A stretch of DNA of 64,000 nucleotides from Giesbergeria sp. GTDB taxonomy: Bacteria; Pseudomonadota; Gammaproteobacteria; Burkholderiales; Burkholderiaceae_C. The stretch is taken from the NCBI GenBank assembly GCA_017985015.1, contig JAGNYI010000003.1, forward strand, positions 66,365 through 130,364, in the 5' to 3' direction. A program made the position numbers and the translations under genes. How positions within the stretch are numbered: position 1 is the stretch's first letter; the number at the start of each line of letters is the position of its first letter. The notes beneath the pieces were generated by a model. It saw only the letters and a list, made by a program, of their open reading frames with translations. It was not told the DNA's origin and ran no database searches. Of this stretch, positions 35,968 through 40,216 are shown one piece after another.

Positions 35968-36006
35968 GTAGCTCAAAGCGCTTATCCAATAAGCGCTAGA
36001 GGCCAT
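35954..36006. repeat. Two-hairpin dispersed repeat, copy 6
   Basis: TTGCTATC...GTAGC followed by AGCGCTTATCCAATAAGCGC and TAGAGGCC. The mpl stop TAA (35965-35967) is inside the first hairpin. It sits between the convergent mpl and the 103-codon gene. Confidence 0.9.
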
Positions 36007-36011
36007 TTTGT

Positions 36012-36323
36012 CTAATAACTTATGGCCATGGAAGGCAGGTCGATGCGCACGATGGCCTTCGCCAGGGCGCCGTGGGTGGCACGCGCAAACTTCTGAAACC
36101 AGTCGGGGTCGGCCAGCAAGACGGGGCCGGCTGCGCGCGCCACGGTCAACACCTTGTCGGCCAGCAGCACCTTGCCGCTGGCGCGCAGGGGCTCGCATTC
36201 AAGGCGCATGAATTCATCGTCGAGCCAGCGACGCGCCACATCCGATGGCATGGGCTCGTGGCCTTCGAGGTCGAAACGGAATTCCTGATTGCGGTCGACG
36301 GTGACCGACACTTCGCTGTGCAT
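36012..36323 (-). CDS. Small protein of unknown function downstream of aroG
   Basis: A 103-residue protein starting MHSEVSVTVDRNQEFRFDLE, 61 bases after the aroG stop on the same strand, so probably cotranscribed. It is acidic at the N-terminus, has no cysteine clusters or membrane segment, and I recognise no family. The in-frame upstream extension to 36488 overlaps aroG and is rejected. Residues ADKVLTVARAAGPVLLADPDWF look helical. A repeat copy abuts the 3' end. Confidence 0.7.
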   Translation of the reverse strand: MHSEVSVTVDRNQEFRFDLEGHEPMPSDVARRWLDDEFMRLECEPLRASGKVLLADKVLTVARAAGPVLLADPDWFQKFARATHGALAKAIVRIDLPSMAISY

Positions 36324-36384
36324 GGCATGCCTTTCTCTTTGAAACGAACCGGCCGGGCGCTGGCCCGGTCCCACACAAACAAGC

Positions 36385-37512
<1,128 letters not shown>

Positions 37513-37553
37513 GGAACTCTTTCGAAAGAAGTAAACAAAGAGAGGAAGGCTGA

Positions 37554-37591
37554 AAAACAAAAAACCGCCGGGCTTTGCAGCTTCGGCGGTT
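37554..37591 (-). terminator. Attenuator terminator upstream of aroG
   Basis: Read on the minus strand: ACCGCCG (37590-37584), a 13-nt loop, CGGCGGT (37570-37564), then TTTTTTGTTT. It ends 41 bases before the aroG start and begins 37 bases after the leader-peptide stop. The leader's last codons (GGCGG at 37636-37632) can pair with the terminator's 5' arm (CCGCC), giving a competing antiterminator. Confidence 0.8.
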
Positions 37592-37627
37592 GGGTGGGAA
37601 GTGTTCAGGTGCTTGCGCGCTTGCCTC

Positions 37628-37684
37628 TCATCCGCCAGGGACCGAGAACCAGAACCAAAAGTAGAAAGCGCTGCGCAAATGCAT
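37628..37684 (-). CDS. Aromatic-rich leader peptide of aroG (predicted)
   Basis: An 18-codon frame, ATG 37684 to TGA 37628, encoding MHLRSAFYFWFWFSVPGG. Seven consecutive codons are aromatic (FYFWFWF: four Phe, one Tyr, two Trp), far above chance. Ribosome stalling on these codons under aromatic starvation would leave the distal GGCGG free to sequester the terminator arm. No strong ribosome-binding site is visible. An extended -10-like TGATACATT at about 37701-37693 would start transcription almost at the ATG, so the peptide might be translated from a leaderless mRNA. Confidence 0.75.
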   Translation of the reverse strand: MHLRSAFYFWFWFSVPGG

Positions 37685-37725
37685 GGCCGCGAATGTATCA
37701 CAGCGACACCGTGTCCTTCGCCGGT

Positions 37726-38277
37726 TCACTTTCTCCGGCGGCGCAACCAGGCCAGTGCGCGCTGCCATGCGCTGCCGGGTTGGGCGCGTGCAACCGGCTC
37801 GCTGTGGACGTTCTCTCCCTGCTCGTACATGTCGATCAGCAGCAGTCCCTCGCCCAGCGTGCGCCAAGACAACAGCTCCACGCGATCAAAGGCGGGCCCC
37901 TCCAGCGGGCTGCGCTGCGCCAGCGCATGGTGCCAGGCCTCGACGGCGCGGCGCAGGCTGCGCAGCGCGAGCTGGTAGGAACCCATCTCGTACAGCGCGT
38001 GCCAGGCCGAGCCCATGCCGGTCACAAACAATTGGTGCTCGCGCACGCACTTCACCAAGTTGGCCGCCTGGCGCGTGATTTCCGGGGTGTCCGGCACGGC
38101 CGGCGCAGCGGGCGCGGCGCGGCGTGTGCCAATGGCGTCGTCGATTTGCTGGGCCAGCGCGCCGATGCTGTCACGCAGCTGGCGCGACTCTTCGTCGGCC
38201 ACGCCCGAGCGCAGAAAGCGGCTGACGTCGCCAAACGACTGGACGGTGAGCTGCGAACGGGAACGCGATGCGACCAT
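37726..38277 (-). CDS. Conserved protein of unknown function between tldD and the aroG leader
   Basis: A 183-residue, largely helical, basic protein starting MVASRSRSQLTVQSFGDVSR. It has a proline/alanine linker around residues 54-66 (RRAAPAAPAVPDTPE), then a helical region with VKCVREHQLFVTGMGSAWHALYEMG, and an Arg-rich end. No family is recognised; there is no signal peptide or membrane segment. It follows tldD by 52 bases on the same strand and ends 41 bases before the aroG leader peptide, so readthrough into the attenuator is possible. Confidence 0.75.
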   Translation of the reverse strand: MVASRSRSQLTVQSFGDVSRFLRSGVADEESRQLRDSIGALAQQIDDAIGTRRAAPAAPAVPDTPEITRQAANLVKCVREHQLFVTGMGSAWHALYEMGSYQLALRSLRRAVEAWHHALAQRSPLEGPAFDRVELLSWRTLGEGLLLIDMYEQGENVHSEPVARAQPGSAWQRALAWLRRRRK

Positions 38278-38329
38278 GCCCGCATTGTGCGCGAGGGCTT
38301 TGGTCCACGCACCCGCGCGCGGCCACTAT

Positions 38330-39814
38330 TTACGCGGTGCCGCCCACCGTGAGTCCATCGATACGCAGCGTGGGCTGGCCGACGCCGACCGGCACGCTCT
38401 GGCCTTCTTTGCCGCAGGTGCCCACGCCGCTGTCGAGCCGCATGTCGTTGCCGATCATGCCCACGCGCTTGAGCGATTCGGGGCCGCTGCCAACGATGGT
38501 GGCGCCCTTCACCGGGTACTGAATCTTGCCGTTCTCTACCCAATAGGCTTCGCTGGCCGAAAACACAAATTTGCCCGAAGTAATGTCCACCTGCCCACCG
38601 CCGAAGTTGGTGGCGTACAGGCCTTTCTTGATGCTGGCGACGATTTCCTTGGGGTCCTTGTCGCCGCCCAGCATGTAGGTGTTGGTCATGCGCGGCATCG
38701 GAATGTGCGCATAGCTCTCGCGCCGGCCATTGCCGGTGGGGGCCACGCCCATCAGGCGGGCGTTGAGCGCATCCTGGATATAGCCCTTGAGGATGCCGTC
38801 CTCGATCAGCACATTGCGCCCGCTGGTGTGGCCCTCGTCGTCGACGTTGAGCGAGCCGCGCCGGTCTGGCAGCGTGCCATCGTCAAGCACCGTGACGCCC
38901 TTGGCTGCCACACGCTGGCCAATGCGGCCGCTGAAGGCGCTCGAGCCCTTGCGGTTGAAATCGCCTTCCAGTCCGTGACCGATGGCCTCATGCAGCAGGA
39001 TGCCGGGCCAGCCAGGGCCGAGCACCACCGTCATTTCCCCGGCGGGCGCGGGGCGCGATTCGAGGTTGACCAGGGCGGCATTCACCGCTTCGTCCACGTA
39101 CTGGGCGATCTGCGCGTCGTCGAAATACGCCAGGCCAAAGCGCCCGCCGCCGCCCGCCGAACCCATTTCGCGCCGGCCGTTCTGCTCGGCAATCACCGTG
39201 ACTGACAGGCGCACCAGCGGGCGCACATCGGCCGCCAGCGTGCCGTCGGCGCGCGCCACCAGCACCACGTCGTACTCGCTCGCCAACCCGGCCATGACCT
39301 GCGCCACGCGCGGGTCCTTGGCGCGGGCGCGCTGTTCGGCACGCTCCAGCAGCGCCACCTTGTCGGTGCTACCCAAGGTGCCGATGGGGTCCAGGCCGGC
39401 ATACAGCGATCGGCTTTTTGCTATCTTTTTGGAAGCTACTCGCACCTTTCCCTGTTGCGCTGACGCCGAAATGGACCGCACAGTCCGGGCTGCATCGAGC
39501 AGTGAGGCTTCAGAGATGTCGTCGGAATACGCAAACGCGGTCTTCTCGCCACTGACGGCGCGCACGCCCACGCCCTGGTCGATCGAGAAGGAGCCGGTTT
39601 TGACGATCCCCTCCTCCAGGCTCCAGCCTTCGCTGCGCGTGGTCTGAAAATACAGGTCGGCGTCGTCCACGCGGTGCGCGCGGATCTCGGCCAGGGCGCG
39701 TGCGAGGTGGCTCTCGTCCAGGCCAAACGGTGTCAGCAGCAGGCTCGCGGCCAAGTCGATGCGCCCGCGCGTGGGGGCGGCGTGGGATGCGGCAGAAGGG
39801 GTACGGGTACTCAT
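38330..39814 (-). CDS. tldD: Metalloprotease TldD
   Basis: Zinc protease subunit that acts with TldE/PmbA (not in window) on modified or unfolded peptides such as microcin precursors. The 494-residue protein has the HExxxH zinc motif as LLHEAIGHGLEGDFNRKG near residue 270. The conserved C-terminal region includes YMLGGDKDPKEIVASIKKGL, FGGGQVDITSGKFVFSASEA and GNDMRLDSGVGTCGKEGQ. Around residues 125-135 the sequence GKVRVASKKIAKSRSL is encoded by a partial two-hairpin repeat, apparently accommodated in frame. Confidence 0.96.
   Translation of the reverse strand: MSTRTPSAASHAAPTRGRIDLAASLLLTPFGLDESHLARALAEIRAHRVDDADLYFQTTRSEGWSLEEGIVKTGSFSIDQGVGVRAVSGEKTAFAYSDDISEASLLDAARTVRSISASAQQGKVRVASKKIAKSRSLYAGLDPIGTLGSTDKVALLERAEQRARAKDPRVAQVMAGLASEYDVVLVARADGTLAADVRPLVRLSVTVIAEQNGRREMGSAGGGGRFGLAYFDDAQIAQYVDEAVNAALVNLESRPAPAGEMTVVLGPGWPGILLHEAIGHGLEGDFNRKGSSAFSGRIGQRVAAKGVTVLDDGTLPDRRGSLNVDDEGHTSGRNVLIEDGILKGYIQDALNARLMGVAPTGNGRRESYAHIPMPRMTNTYMLGGDKDPKEIVASIKKGLYATNFGGGQVDITSGKFVFSASEAYWVENGKIQYPVKGATIVGSGPESLKRVGMIGNDMRLDSGVGTCGKEGQSVPVGVGQPTLRIDGLTVGGTA
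39413..39443. repeat. Partial two-hairpin repeat inside tldD, copy 7
   Basis: TTTTTGCTATCTTTTTGGAA and GCTACTC preserve the first (GCTAT...TAGC-type) half of the repeat; the AGCGCTT hairpin is absent. It is in frame within tldD and adds lysine-rich codons. Confidence is limited because only half of the element is present. Confidence 0.55.
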
Positions 39815-39880
39815 CGGCGCATTTTAGGGCGCGGCCCCGAAACCTCGCCCAGGGCGCCGCAGTTCCCATGCCGGGCAAAC

Positions 39881-40216
39881 TCAGAGCGTCTGGTCGTCCA
39901 GTACCGCGCCGGCTGCGTTGCTCTGCACGGACTCGATGCCCCCATCGCGCGCCTTGGCGCCGGAATACATCTGGCTTTGGCCGATCACCTGGCCGTTGAG
40001 CGCCTTGAGGGTGAAGTAGGGCGAGCCGTCCTTGGCAGAAAGGCGGCCGTAGCGCGCGTCGTCGGGCCCATTTTTGCGCACCGATTCGATGCCGCCCAGC
40101 GCGCTGGCTTTGGACTCGTAGGTTTCGCTGGTCAGCACCACCTGGCCATTGGCTGCCAGCAGGTTGAAAACAAATTTGTCGCTCTGGGTTTTCTTCAGCT
40201 CGAACCTGGCGGCCAT
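39881..40216 (-). CDS. YegP family protein (two DUF1508 repeats)
   Basis: A 111-residue protein made of two tandem copies of a roughly 48-residue unit: KFVFNLLAANGQVVLTSETY...GGIESVRKN, and PYFTLKALNGQVIGQSQMY...GGIESVQSN. This is the UPF0339/YegP architecture, whose function is unknown. The start MAARFELKKTQ (40216) was chosen; the upstream in-frame extension lies antisense to the rodA 3' region and is not protein-like. It follows rodA on the same strand with a 77-bp gap. Confidence 0.9.
   Translation of the reverse strand: MAARFELKKTQSDKFVFNLLAANGQVVLTSETYESKASALGGIESVRKNGPDDARYGRLSAKDGSPYFTLKALNGQVIGQSQMYSGAKARDGGIESVQSNAAGAVLDDQTL

Follow-up and report, generated by a model that had tools for sequence, protein, structure and literature searches.

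A predicted ribosome-mediated attenuator with an all-aromatic leader peptide upstream of aroG in Giesbergeria and other Burkholderiales

Introduction

DAHP synthase (3-deoxy-7-phosphoheptulonate synthase) catalyzes the first step of the shikimate pathway, and the locus described here raises the question of how transcription of its gene, aroG, might be tied to the supply of phenylalanine, tyrosine and tryptophan. According to excerpts of one study, the aromatic genes of E. coli are controlled by TyrR and TrpR and TyrR regulons have been described for lineages of gammaproteobacteria; no description of TyrR/TrpR control in the bacterial group considered here was found in those excerpts (PMC5343134). 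The aroG gene in question lies in a 64,000-nucleotide stretch of a Giesbergeria sp. genome (GenBank assembly GCA_017985015.1), hereafter referred to as the window. An earlier reading of the window sequence (the original prediction) had placed a transcription attenuator with an aromatic leader peptide in front of this gene. Comparison with related genomes points to a real attenuator, conserved and classical in design though placed at an unusual gene; its predicted sensor codons all specify aromatic residues, and its start is probably leaderless.

Organization of the aroG leader region

As originally claimed, a real aromatic frame precedes aroG. It runs on the minus strand from an ATG (37684-37682) to a TGA (37630-37628), and its codons 7-13 (TTC TAC TTT TGG TTC TGG TTC) specify four Phe, one Tyr and two Trp. 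A run of seven successive aromatic codons occurs only once in the six frames of the window, where approximately 0.0002 would be expected from codon frequency. The features of the locus are as follows (the Comamonadaceae group is defined below).

37692 to 37700, minus strand: predicted extended -10 element (TG-A-TACATT), from the window sequence and its fixed placement in 87/87 leaders of the Comamonadaceae group
37628 to 37684, minus strand: leader peptide frame, MHLRSAFYFWFWFSVPGG followed by a stop codon, from translation, with counterparts at 79/79 aroG loci with upstream DNA
37646 to 37666, minus strand: sensor codons, seven successive aromatic codons, from the sequence and the aromatic identity kept among relatives
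37639 to 37648, minus strand: strand 1, 5' arm of the protector hairpin (TTCTC 37648-37644 and GTCC 37642-37639), from pairing by eye, folds and order-wide covariation
37625 to 37636, minus strand: strand 2 (GGCGG 37636-37632, two unspecified bases, GAGAG 37629-37625), from conservation and folds; kept in more than one reading frame
37584 to 37591, minus strand: strand 3, AACCGCCG, common to antiterminator and terminator, from the sequence, alignment, consensus fold and covariation
37553 to 37570, minus strand: strand 4, CGGCGGTT (37570-37563), with the U-run, forming the 3' arm of the intrinsic terminator, from the sequence, consensus fold and folds
36385 to 37512, minus strand: aroG, encoding DAHP synthase, the presumed regulated gene, from the open reading frame and a TIGR00034 match

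The assignment of aroG is borne out by the TIGR00034 match (538 bits against a cut-off of 173.2). The terminator (37591-37553) has a stem of eight pairs between strands 3 and 4, six of them G-C, a loop of 13 nt, and a T6-G-T5 tract after the stem; the hairpin and T-run are thus present as described, with eight pairs where the original prediction gave seven. A terminator scan limited to loops of at most 8 nt picked out a different pairing, at 37584-37561, its only hit where 0.6 would be expected. Strand 1 overlaps the last Phe codon of the run, and strand 2 can pair either with strand 1 (protector) or with strand 3 (antiterminator). The GGCGG of strand 2 lies where it was first placed and is able to pair with the CCGCC in the 5' arm of the terminator, but the antiterminator is not the simple one that had been proposed, as it faces competition from a protector hairpin in which GGCGGNNGAGAG pairs with the end of the run. 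This hairpin and the extended -10 box are the two parts that had been overlooked.

Upstream, a 183-codon frame (37726-38277, minus strand) lies between tldD and the leader; it has no NCBIfam match (E ≤0.001) and no Pfam match (E ≤0.01), and tldD is one frame further upstream. Downstream of aroG, a 158-codon frame (36015-36488, minus strand) overlaps the end of the gene and has no Pfam match (E ≤0.01). The same genome encodes a second AroG-type DAHP synthase, 57% identical, with no aromatic leader of this kind upstream.

Proposed mechanism

In the pheL-pheA, pheST and trpL-trpE attenuators of E. coli, strand pairing follows a 1:2 / 2:3 / 3:4 logic, the sensor codons lie just before strand 2, and an intrinsic terminator completes the structure. 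The aroG leader is like the pheL/trpL attenuators in the logic of its strands, in the placement of its sensor codons and in its intrinsic terminator. Its three alternative folds are a 1:2 protector (end of the run with strand 2), a 2:3 antiterminator (strand 2 with CCGCC) and a 3:4 terminator (CCGCC with a second GGCGG), of which the candidate protector completes the pheL/trpL-type design.

Very probably, aroG is controlled by a ribosome-mediated transcription attenuator of this type, and most likely a shortage of aromatic amino acids at the ribosome would switch the gene on. From the arrangement of the parts we infer ribosome stalling, termination, a leaderless start and which amino acids count, in the following sequence. 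Transcription is predicted to begin at the leader AUG or 1-2 nt before it, and a ribosome would load on the leaderless 5' end and move into the aromatic run. When charged tRNA-Phe, -Tyr or -Trp is scarce, the ribosome would stall within the run. The leading edge of a ribosome lies approximately 12-15 nt ahead of the stalled codon, and in the leader it would cover strand 1 and stop short of GGCGG. Strand 2 would then pair with strand 3, and RNA polymerase would read into aroG. When all three amino acids are plentiful, the ribosome would run on to strand 2, strands 3 and 4 would pair, and transcription would end approximately 130 nt in. Should the leader remain untranslated, the 1:2 protector hairpin would form, again leading to termination. 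A ribosome halted at the first codons of the run would not be expected to cover strand 1, which puts most weight on the final three or four codons; the last four are Trp-Phe-Trp-Phe in the window and Tyr-Phe-Trp-Phe in many leaders of the Comamonadaceae group.

Conservation among aroG loci of the Comamonadaceae group

A single search of genome contigs, with AroG as query, yielded 80 aroG loci, most of which we take to belong to Comamonadaceae genera (Acidovorax, Simplicispira, Polaromonas, Variovorax, Comamonas, Delftia, Curvibacter, Ramlibacter, and others); the remainder are labelled Burkholderiaceae, Proteobacteria or uncultured. One locus (L008) was left out because its contig edge leaves too little upstream DNA, giving 79 readable loci. 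The term Comamonadaceae group denotes these 80 loci together with the window and eight loci from own-family genomes found in the covariance-model search described below. Further rows were dropped, namely L083 (the window's own place), L133 (its run misparsed) and L081 (set aside).

All 79 readable loci have a short frame of 8-45 codons with at least six aromatic residues in eight codons. Behind this frame, the terminator is present at 78 of them and in the window, L070 being without that stretch; relatives that keep the hairpin thus keep the aromatic codons as well, and, with GGCGG and CCGCC also retained, these counts support the predicted attenuator. The terminator parser failed on L070 and eight further loci across the whole set (L124, L136, L146, L147, L151, L158, L160, L161), and an aromatic-rich frame is visible in all nine except L158. 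Typical leader peptides of relatives end in YFFAYFWFPVSGGREASA, FYFGYFWFSSASGGREILA or FYFYFWFSVPGGREASA before the stop codon. Phe, Tyr and Trp codons swap for one another from relative to relative, while the positions remain aromatic.

The mix of sensor codons differs by lineage. Within the Comamonadaceae group, almost every leader has Trp codons, and 86/87 contain all three amino acids. Elsewhere the leaders often have only Phe and Tyr: among 59 leaders outside the group, all three are present in 25, Phe and Tyr but not Trp in 29, and only Phe in 4. This variation bears on a narrower version of the attenuator, in which only the last three or four codons would mask strand 1, so that Phe and Trp would matter and Tyr would matter little in this organism. 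The Tyr codon of the window begins 27 nt before GGCGG, and the leaders outside the group that lack Trp, or both Trp and Tyr, also speak for a signal of fewer amino acids. On the other hand, the codons nearest GGCGG include Phe, Tyr and Trp when the whole group is considered, nearly every group leader carries all three, and ribosome edges are known only to within a few nucleotides. We regard this narrower signal as a serious possibility, although we lean against it.

Following the run, the element GGCGGNNGAGAG is conserved in most rows (exceptions include L043, L047, L054, L061 and L090). From the start of the last aromatic codon to GGCGG, the distance is 11, 12, 14 or 15 nt in 82/85 parsed group rows and 11-15 nt in 43/52 parsed leaders outside the group. 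Across loci the element is read in several frames (GGRE, PAAER, ADER), and this, together with its several distances from the run, indicates that it is kept as RNA. GGRE was considered as a conserved peptide motif and rejected, since in several loci, L036, L039, L045, L053, L057 and L072 among them, GGCGGNNGAGAG is translated in a different frame. Retention in more than one frame is also what one would expect if the terminated leader RNA or the peptide acted in trans and the conservation of GGCGGNNGAGAG partly reflected a trans target; a trans role of the trp leader peptide has been reported in Sinorhizobium, as given in excerpts of PMC7298713. Pairing with strands 1 and 3 can by itself explain the conservation, and we consider an additional trans role improbable.

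Distribution in Burkholderiales and beyond

A covariance model was built from the leader alignment and run on 300 Burkholderiales genomes. With stricter filters, which lose weak matches, 95/300 genomes have a match at E ≤0.01; a relative of AroG (E ≤1e-60) is present in 224 of the same 300. The Giesbergeria genome itself has one match at E 2.8e-26, the next best being at 0.049. Among the full-length matches, 72/75 lie upstream of aroG. The other three are weak (E 0.003 to 0.007), two of them being opposite strands of one place in genome G172 and one lying in G299; the two places were inspected as L162 and L163 (E 0.003 and 0.007), the third match being the other strand of the L162 place, and neither has aroG. 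A further 35 matches are short, covering model positions from approximately 50-100 to 132, and none of the six that were fetched (L164-L169) has aroG.

In a draw at the level of the class, 8/274 genomes match at E ≤0.001. Three of these belong to the window's own family, two are full-length matches before aroG from one family outside the order (L170 and L171), and three are short, with no aroG found at their loci. The leaders of L170 and L171 begin FYFWYYFPKPLAEEG and FYRWYYFPKPPAEEG, respectively, and were perhaps acquired by transfer or derive from an older common stock.

Forty aroG places without a model match were also read, in 38 genomes of the approximately 150 unmatched and as second copies in G158 and G240. 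Three of the 40 (L180, L187 and L190) have a leader with a terminator in spite of the missing match. L197 has an aromatic-rich frame with no such terminator in the stretch examined, and the remaining 36 have at most four aromatic residues in nine codons (the stretch of L192 being short). As 37/40 of these places are without such a leader, aroG can do without it. Read by eye, a tldD-like end lies before aroG at 12 places (L175-L177, L181, L184, L185, L189, L194, L206, L210, L212 and L214), which suggests that these relatives either lost the leader region or retain an older arrangement. The element is therefore widespread in the order, but not universal.

A predicted promoter and leaderless start

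The extended -10 element of the window ends 7 nt before the leader ATG, which predicts a transcript start approximately 1 nt before it. A TGnTAnnnT motif ending 6-8 nt before the leader start is present in 87/87 group leaders, as compared with 0.15% at displaced positions, in a test that also accepted an in-frame ATG as much as five codons upstream of the parsed one. Outside the group, the motif is found at this distance in 16/59 leaders (0.7% at displaced positions), and the other 43 have no such promoter arrangement. A promoter scan of the window that required a -35 hexamer gave no site.

With the usual spacing of a -10 box to the transcript start, transcription would begin 0-2 nt before the AUG. 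The E. coli pheL-pheA, pheST and trpL-trpE leaders have a Shine-Dalgarno site, while a Shine-Dalgarno word longer than 3 nt precedes the leader start in 0/87 group leaders. Before aroG itself, a word of at least 4 nt is present in 56/86 group rows, where the gene is assumed to begin with the protein match. The position of the extended -10 element, 6-8 nt before the ATG, thus suggests that the leader is probably translated from a leaderless mRNA, a prediction based on promoter spacing.

The same element bears on whether the hairpin could instead terminate an upstream transcript, with the aromatic frame arising by chance. The stem does follow the end of the same-strand frame at 37726-38277 at a distance of approximately 135 nt. 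However, a promoter-like element stands just before the leader throughout the group, the aromatic frame is found at every locus with upstream DNA, and strand 2 resembles the 3' arm of the terminator more than shuffled sequences do (see below), which leaves this explanation very little probability. Still less credible is a tRNA- or metabolite-binding riboswitch (T-box or other aptamer) in place of a translated leader: a conserved RNA stretch ahead of a terminator would fit one, but neither positions 36000-40000 of the window nor nine related loci match an Rfam covariance model, and aromatic codons interchange in one frame, pointing to translation. The Rfam search of positions 36000-40000 was run at E ≤1 and returned nothing save a sub-threshold CRISPR repeat match at 39292, and the nine loci were searched at the gathering score. 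That match (CRISPR-DR20, 39292-39327, plus strand, 24.7 bits against a gathering score of 42) lies inside tldD and is taken as chance.

Alternative folds and covariation

For the attenuator with a translated leader, the case is comparative, and the predicted folds of the window alone are unexceptional. The fold of the window's whole leader is typical of its shuffles (z -0.06; 87/200 as good), its antiterminator on its own has a z of -0.4, and the 5-nt word common to strands 2 and 4 is matched by 66/200 shuffles. Over 148 rows, the word common to strands 2 and 4 averages 6.6 nt, as compared with 4.2 in shuffles. Mean energies over 79 rows are -10.8 (protector), -15.3 (antiterminator) and -17.5 kcal/mol (terminator). 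Against dinucleotide shuffles, the mean z values of these three folds are -0.9, -2.8 and -3.9, respectively, in 85 group rows, and -1.1, -2.7 and -4.6 in 52 rows outside the group. When the inner part of the antiterminator alone is shuffled, the mean z is -0.94, with 28/79 rows below -1. Some rows have a longer antiterminator by eye, for instance with inner helices AGAU/AUCU and GCGU/ACGC (L067) or GAGUUC/GAAUUC and ACGU/ACGU (L032). These statistics, and those on covariation below, treat rows as independent regardless of relatedness, and the 87 group rows contain close relatives (e.g., L045 and L084).

A consensus fold of the 79-row alignment recovers the terminator alone; a single pair in it is changed on both sides, and there is no gain from covariation, which is nearly absent because the core helices scarcely vary inside the group. 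GGCGG, CCGCC and GGCGG occupy strands 2, 3 and 4 in 137/146 parsed leaders. The bases that flank them (before the GGCGG of strand 2, after CCGCC, and before the GGCGG of strand 4) are C-G-C in 68 of the 137 and T-A-T in 23, followed by A-G-C (14) and T-G-C (11). In one row, L062, strands 2 and 4 have a T and strand 3 the matching A, where the similar leader L042 has C, C and G. The flanking pair of strands 2 and 3 is paired in 75.9% of all rows as compared with 65.3% when shuffled (0/5000), and in 63.5% as compared with 55.4% outside the group (permutation p 0.016), with no difference within the group (p 0.40). Fisher tests of C/T against G/A at this pair give 1.7e-10 for all rows and 4.8e-4 outside the group. 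The compensatory changes that the original prediction had proposed to look for within Comamonadaceae are found across the order, at the flanking base, with no signal inside the Comamonadaceae group. The other flanking positions, 2(-2):3(+2) and 2(+1):3(-1), give no signal (p 0.57 and 0.33).

The protector hairpin was examined in 66 gapless 31-nt hairpins, 20 from the group (including the window) and 46 from outside it; apart from the window, these were drawn from 100 distinct hairpins, of which 65 were used (46/46 outside the group and 19/54 within it). Paired cells (66.7% versus 63.0% shuffled, 0/500), the covariation score (0.261 versus 0.212, 0/500) and cells changed on both sides (46 versus 28.9, 3/500) all exceed the shuffled values. 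Two other measures, the number of pairs changed on both sides and the number of further pair types, do not rise above shuffles (186 and 221 of 500), and sliding the hairpin by +3 yields nearly the score found in register (0.257 versus 0.261). A register-free helix score lies above 1000/1000 re-dealings for all rows, and likewise for the 46 outside rows, with no signal in the 20 group rows (211/1000). The comparison shows the anatomy of the leader, its conservation, and family-to-family covariation of its parts.

Relation to known attenuators

An attenuator at aroR-aroF of Corynebacterium glutamicum was reportedly described by Neshat et al. in 2014. In this actinobacterium, the leader aroR (Phe-Tyr-Phe) precedes aroF, and stalling under Phe limitation has been reported in the accessible text of two papers (PMC11802643; PMC4046766). 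Like the Burkholderiales leader, aroR places aromatic (Phe/Tyr) codons before a DAHP synthase gene. Compared by these partial descriptions, it has no Trp, whereas the run here has seven codons and all three amino acids, and occurs in many families of one proteobacterial order. Our guess is that the two leaders are of independent origin. In Acholeplasma, excerpts of PMC8632094 propose the motif uORFC-13-1 upstream of aroF, in which a small frame containing one or more Phe codons is accompanied by a terminator; it is alike in its short frame and terminator before a DAHP synthase gene, and unlike the Burkholderiales leader in its different phylum, its 24 sequences and its restriction to Phe. The same excerpts mention an earlier hypothesis that attenuation controls aroF in E. 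coli, in a form unlike the uORFC-13-1 motif (PMC8632094).

The pheL-pheA, pheST and trpL-trpE attenuators of E. coli are mentioned in the accessible parts of PMC11802643 and PMC11878033. Each of these responds to one amino acid, at branch enzymes or a tRNA synthetase, and differs in this from the aroG leader with its codons for three. Attenuator leader peptides transcribed without a 5' UTR are described for Streptomyces lividans (Leu, Trp, Ile/Val/Leu, Thr and Met) in excerpts of PMC8079986; the aroG leader would likewise have no 5' UTR, as predicted from promoter spacing, whereas S. lividans, unlike the host of the aroG leader, is an actinobacterium. In Bordetella parapertussis, a table in PMC1173090, seen as an excerpt, lists a putative attenuator before the gyrA-serC-pheA-tyrA cluster and not before aroG. 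The openly readable literature, in part excerpts, yielded no description of an aroG attenuator in Burkholderiales; Vitreschak 2004 and Panina 2001 lie outside this scope, and an earlier prediction is possible. As a correction to the original prediction, attenuators with aromatic codons at the first shikimate step are already known elsewhere, outside Proteobacteria (C. glutamicum aroR-aroF, Acholeplasma aroF). What looks new is a leader with codons for all three amino acids, its distribution across an order, and a probably leaderless leader in Proteobacteria.

Significance

Taken together, one leaderless leader peptide may serve as a three-input sensor, in which shortage of any of Phe, Tyr or Trp would raise the first shikimate enzyme; an attenuator spread through the order would stand in for the TyrR/TrpR control that DAHP synthase is known to have in E. 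coli, with its codon mix retuned between lineages and other lineages going without it. On this joint reading as a whole we are evenly divided. If true, it would explain how a large group of bacteria of environmental and industrial importance sets the flux into all aromatic amino acids, and it would provide a natural sensor of three amino acids by one peptide. It would also be a case of proteobacterial attenuation from a leaderless mRNA, in which ribosome loading and the position of RNA polymerase could be studied without an upstream initiation region. The variation of the run between families offers a natural handle on which codon positions count. For annotation, the regions upstream of aroG in this order can contain a small gene that is easily missed.
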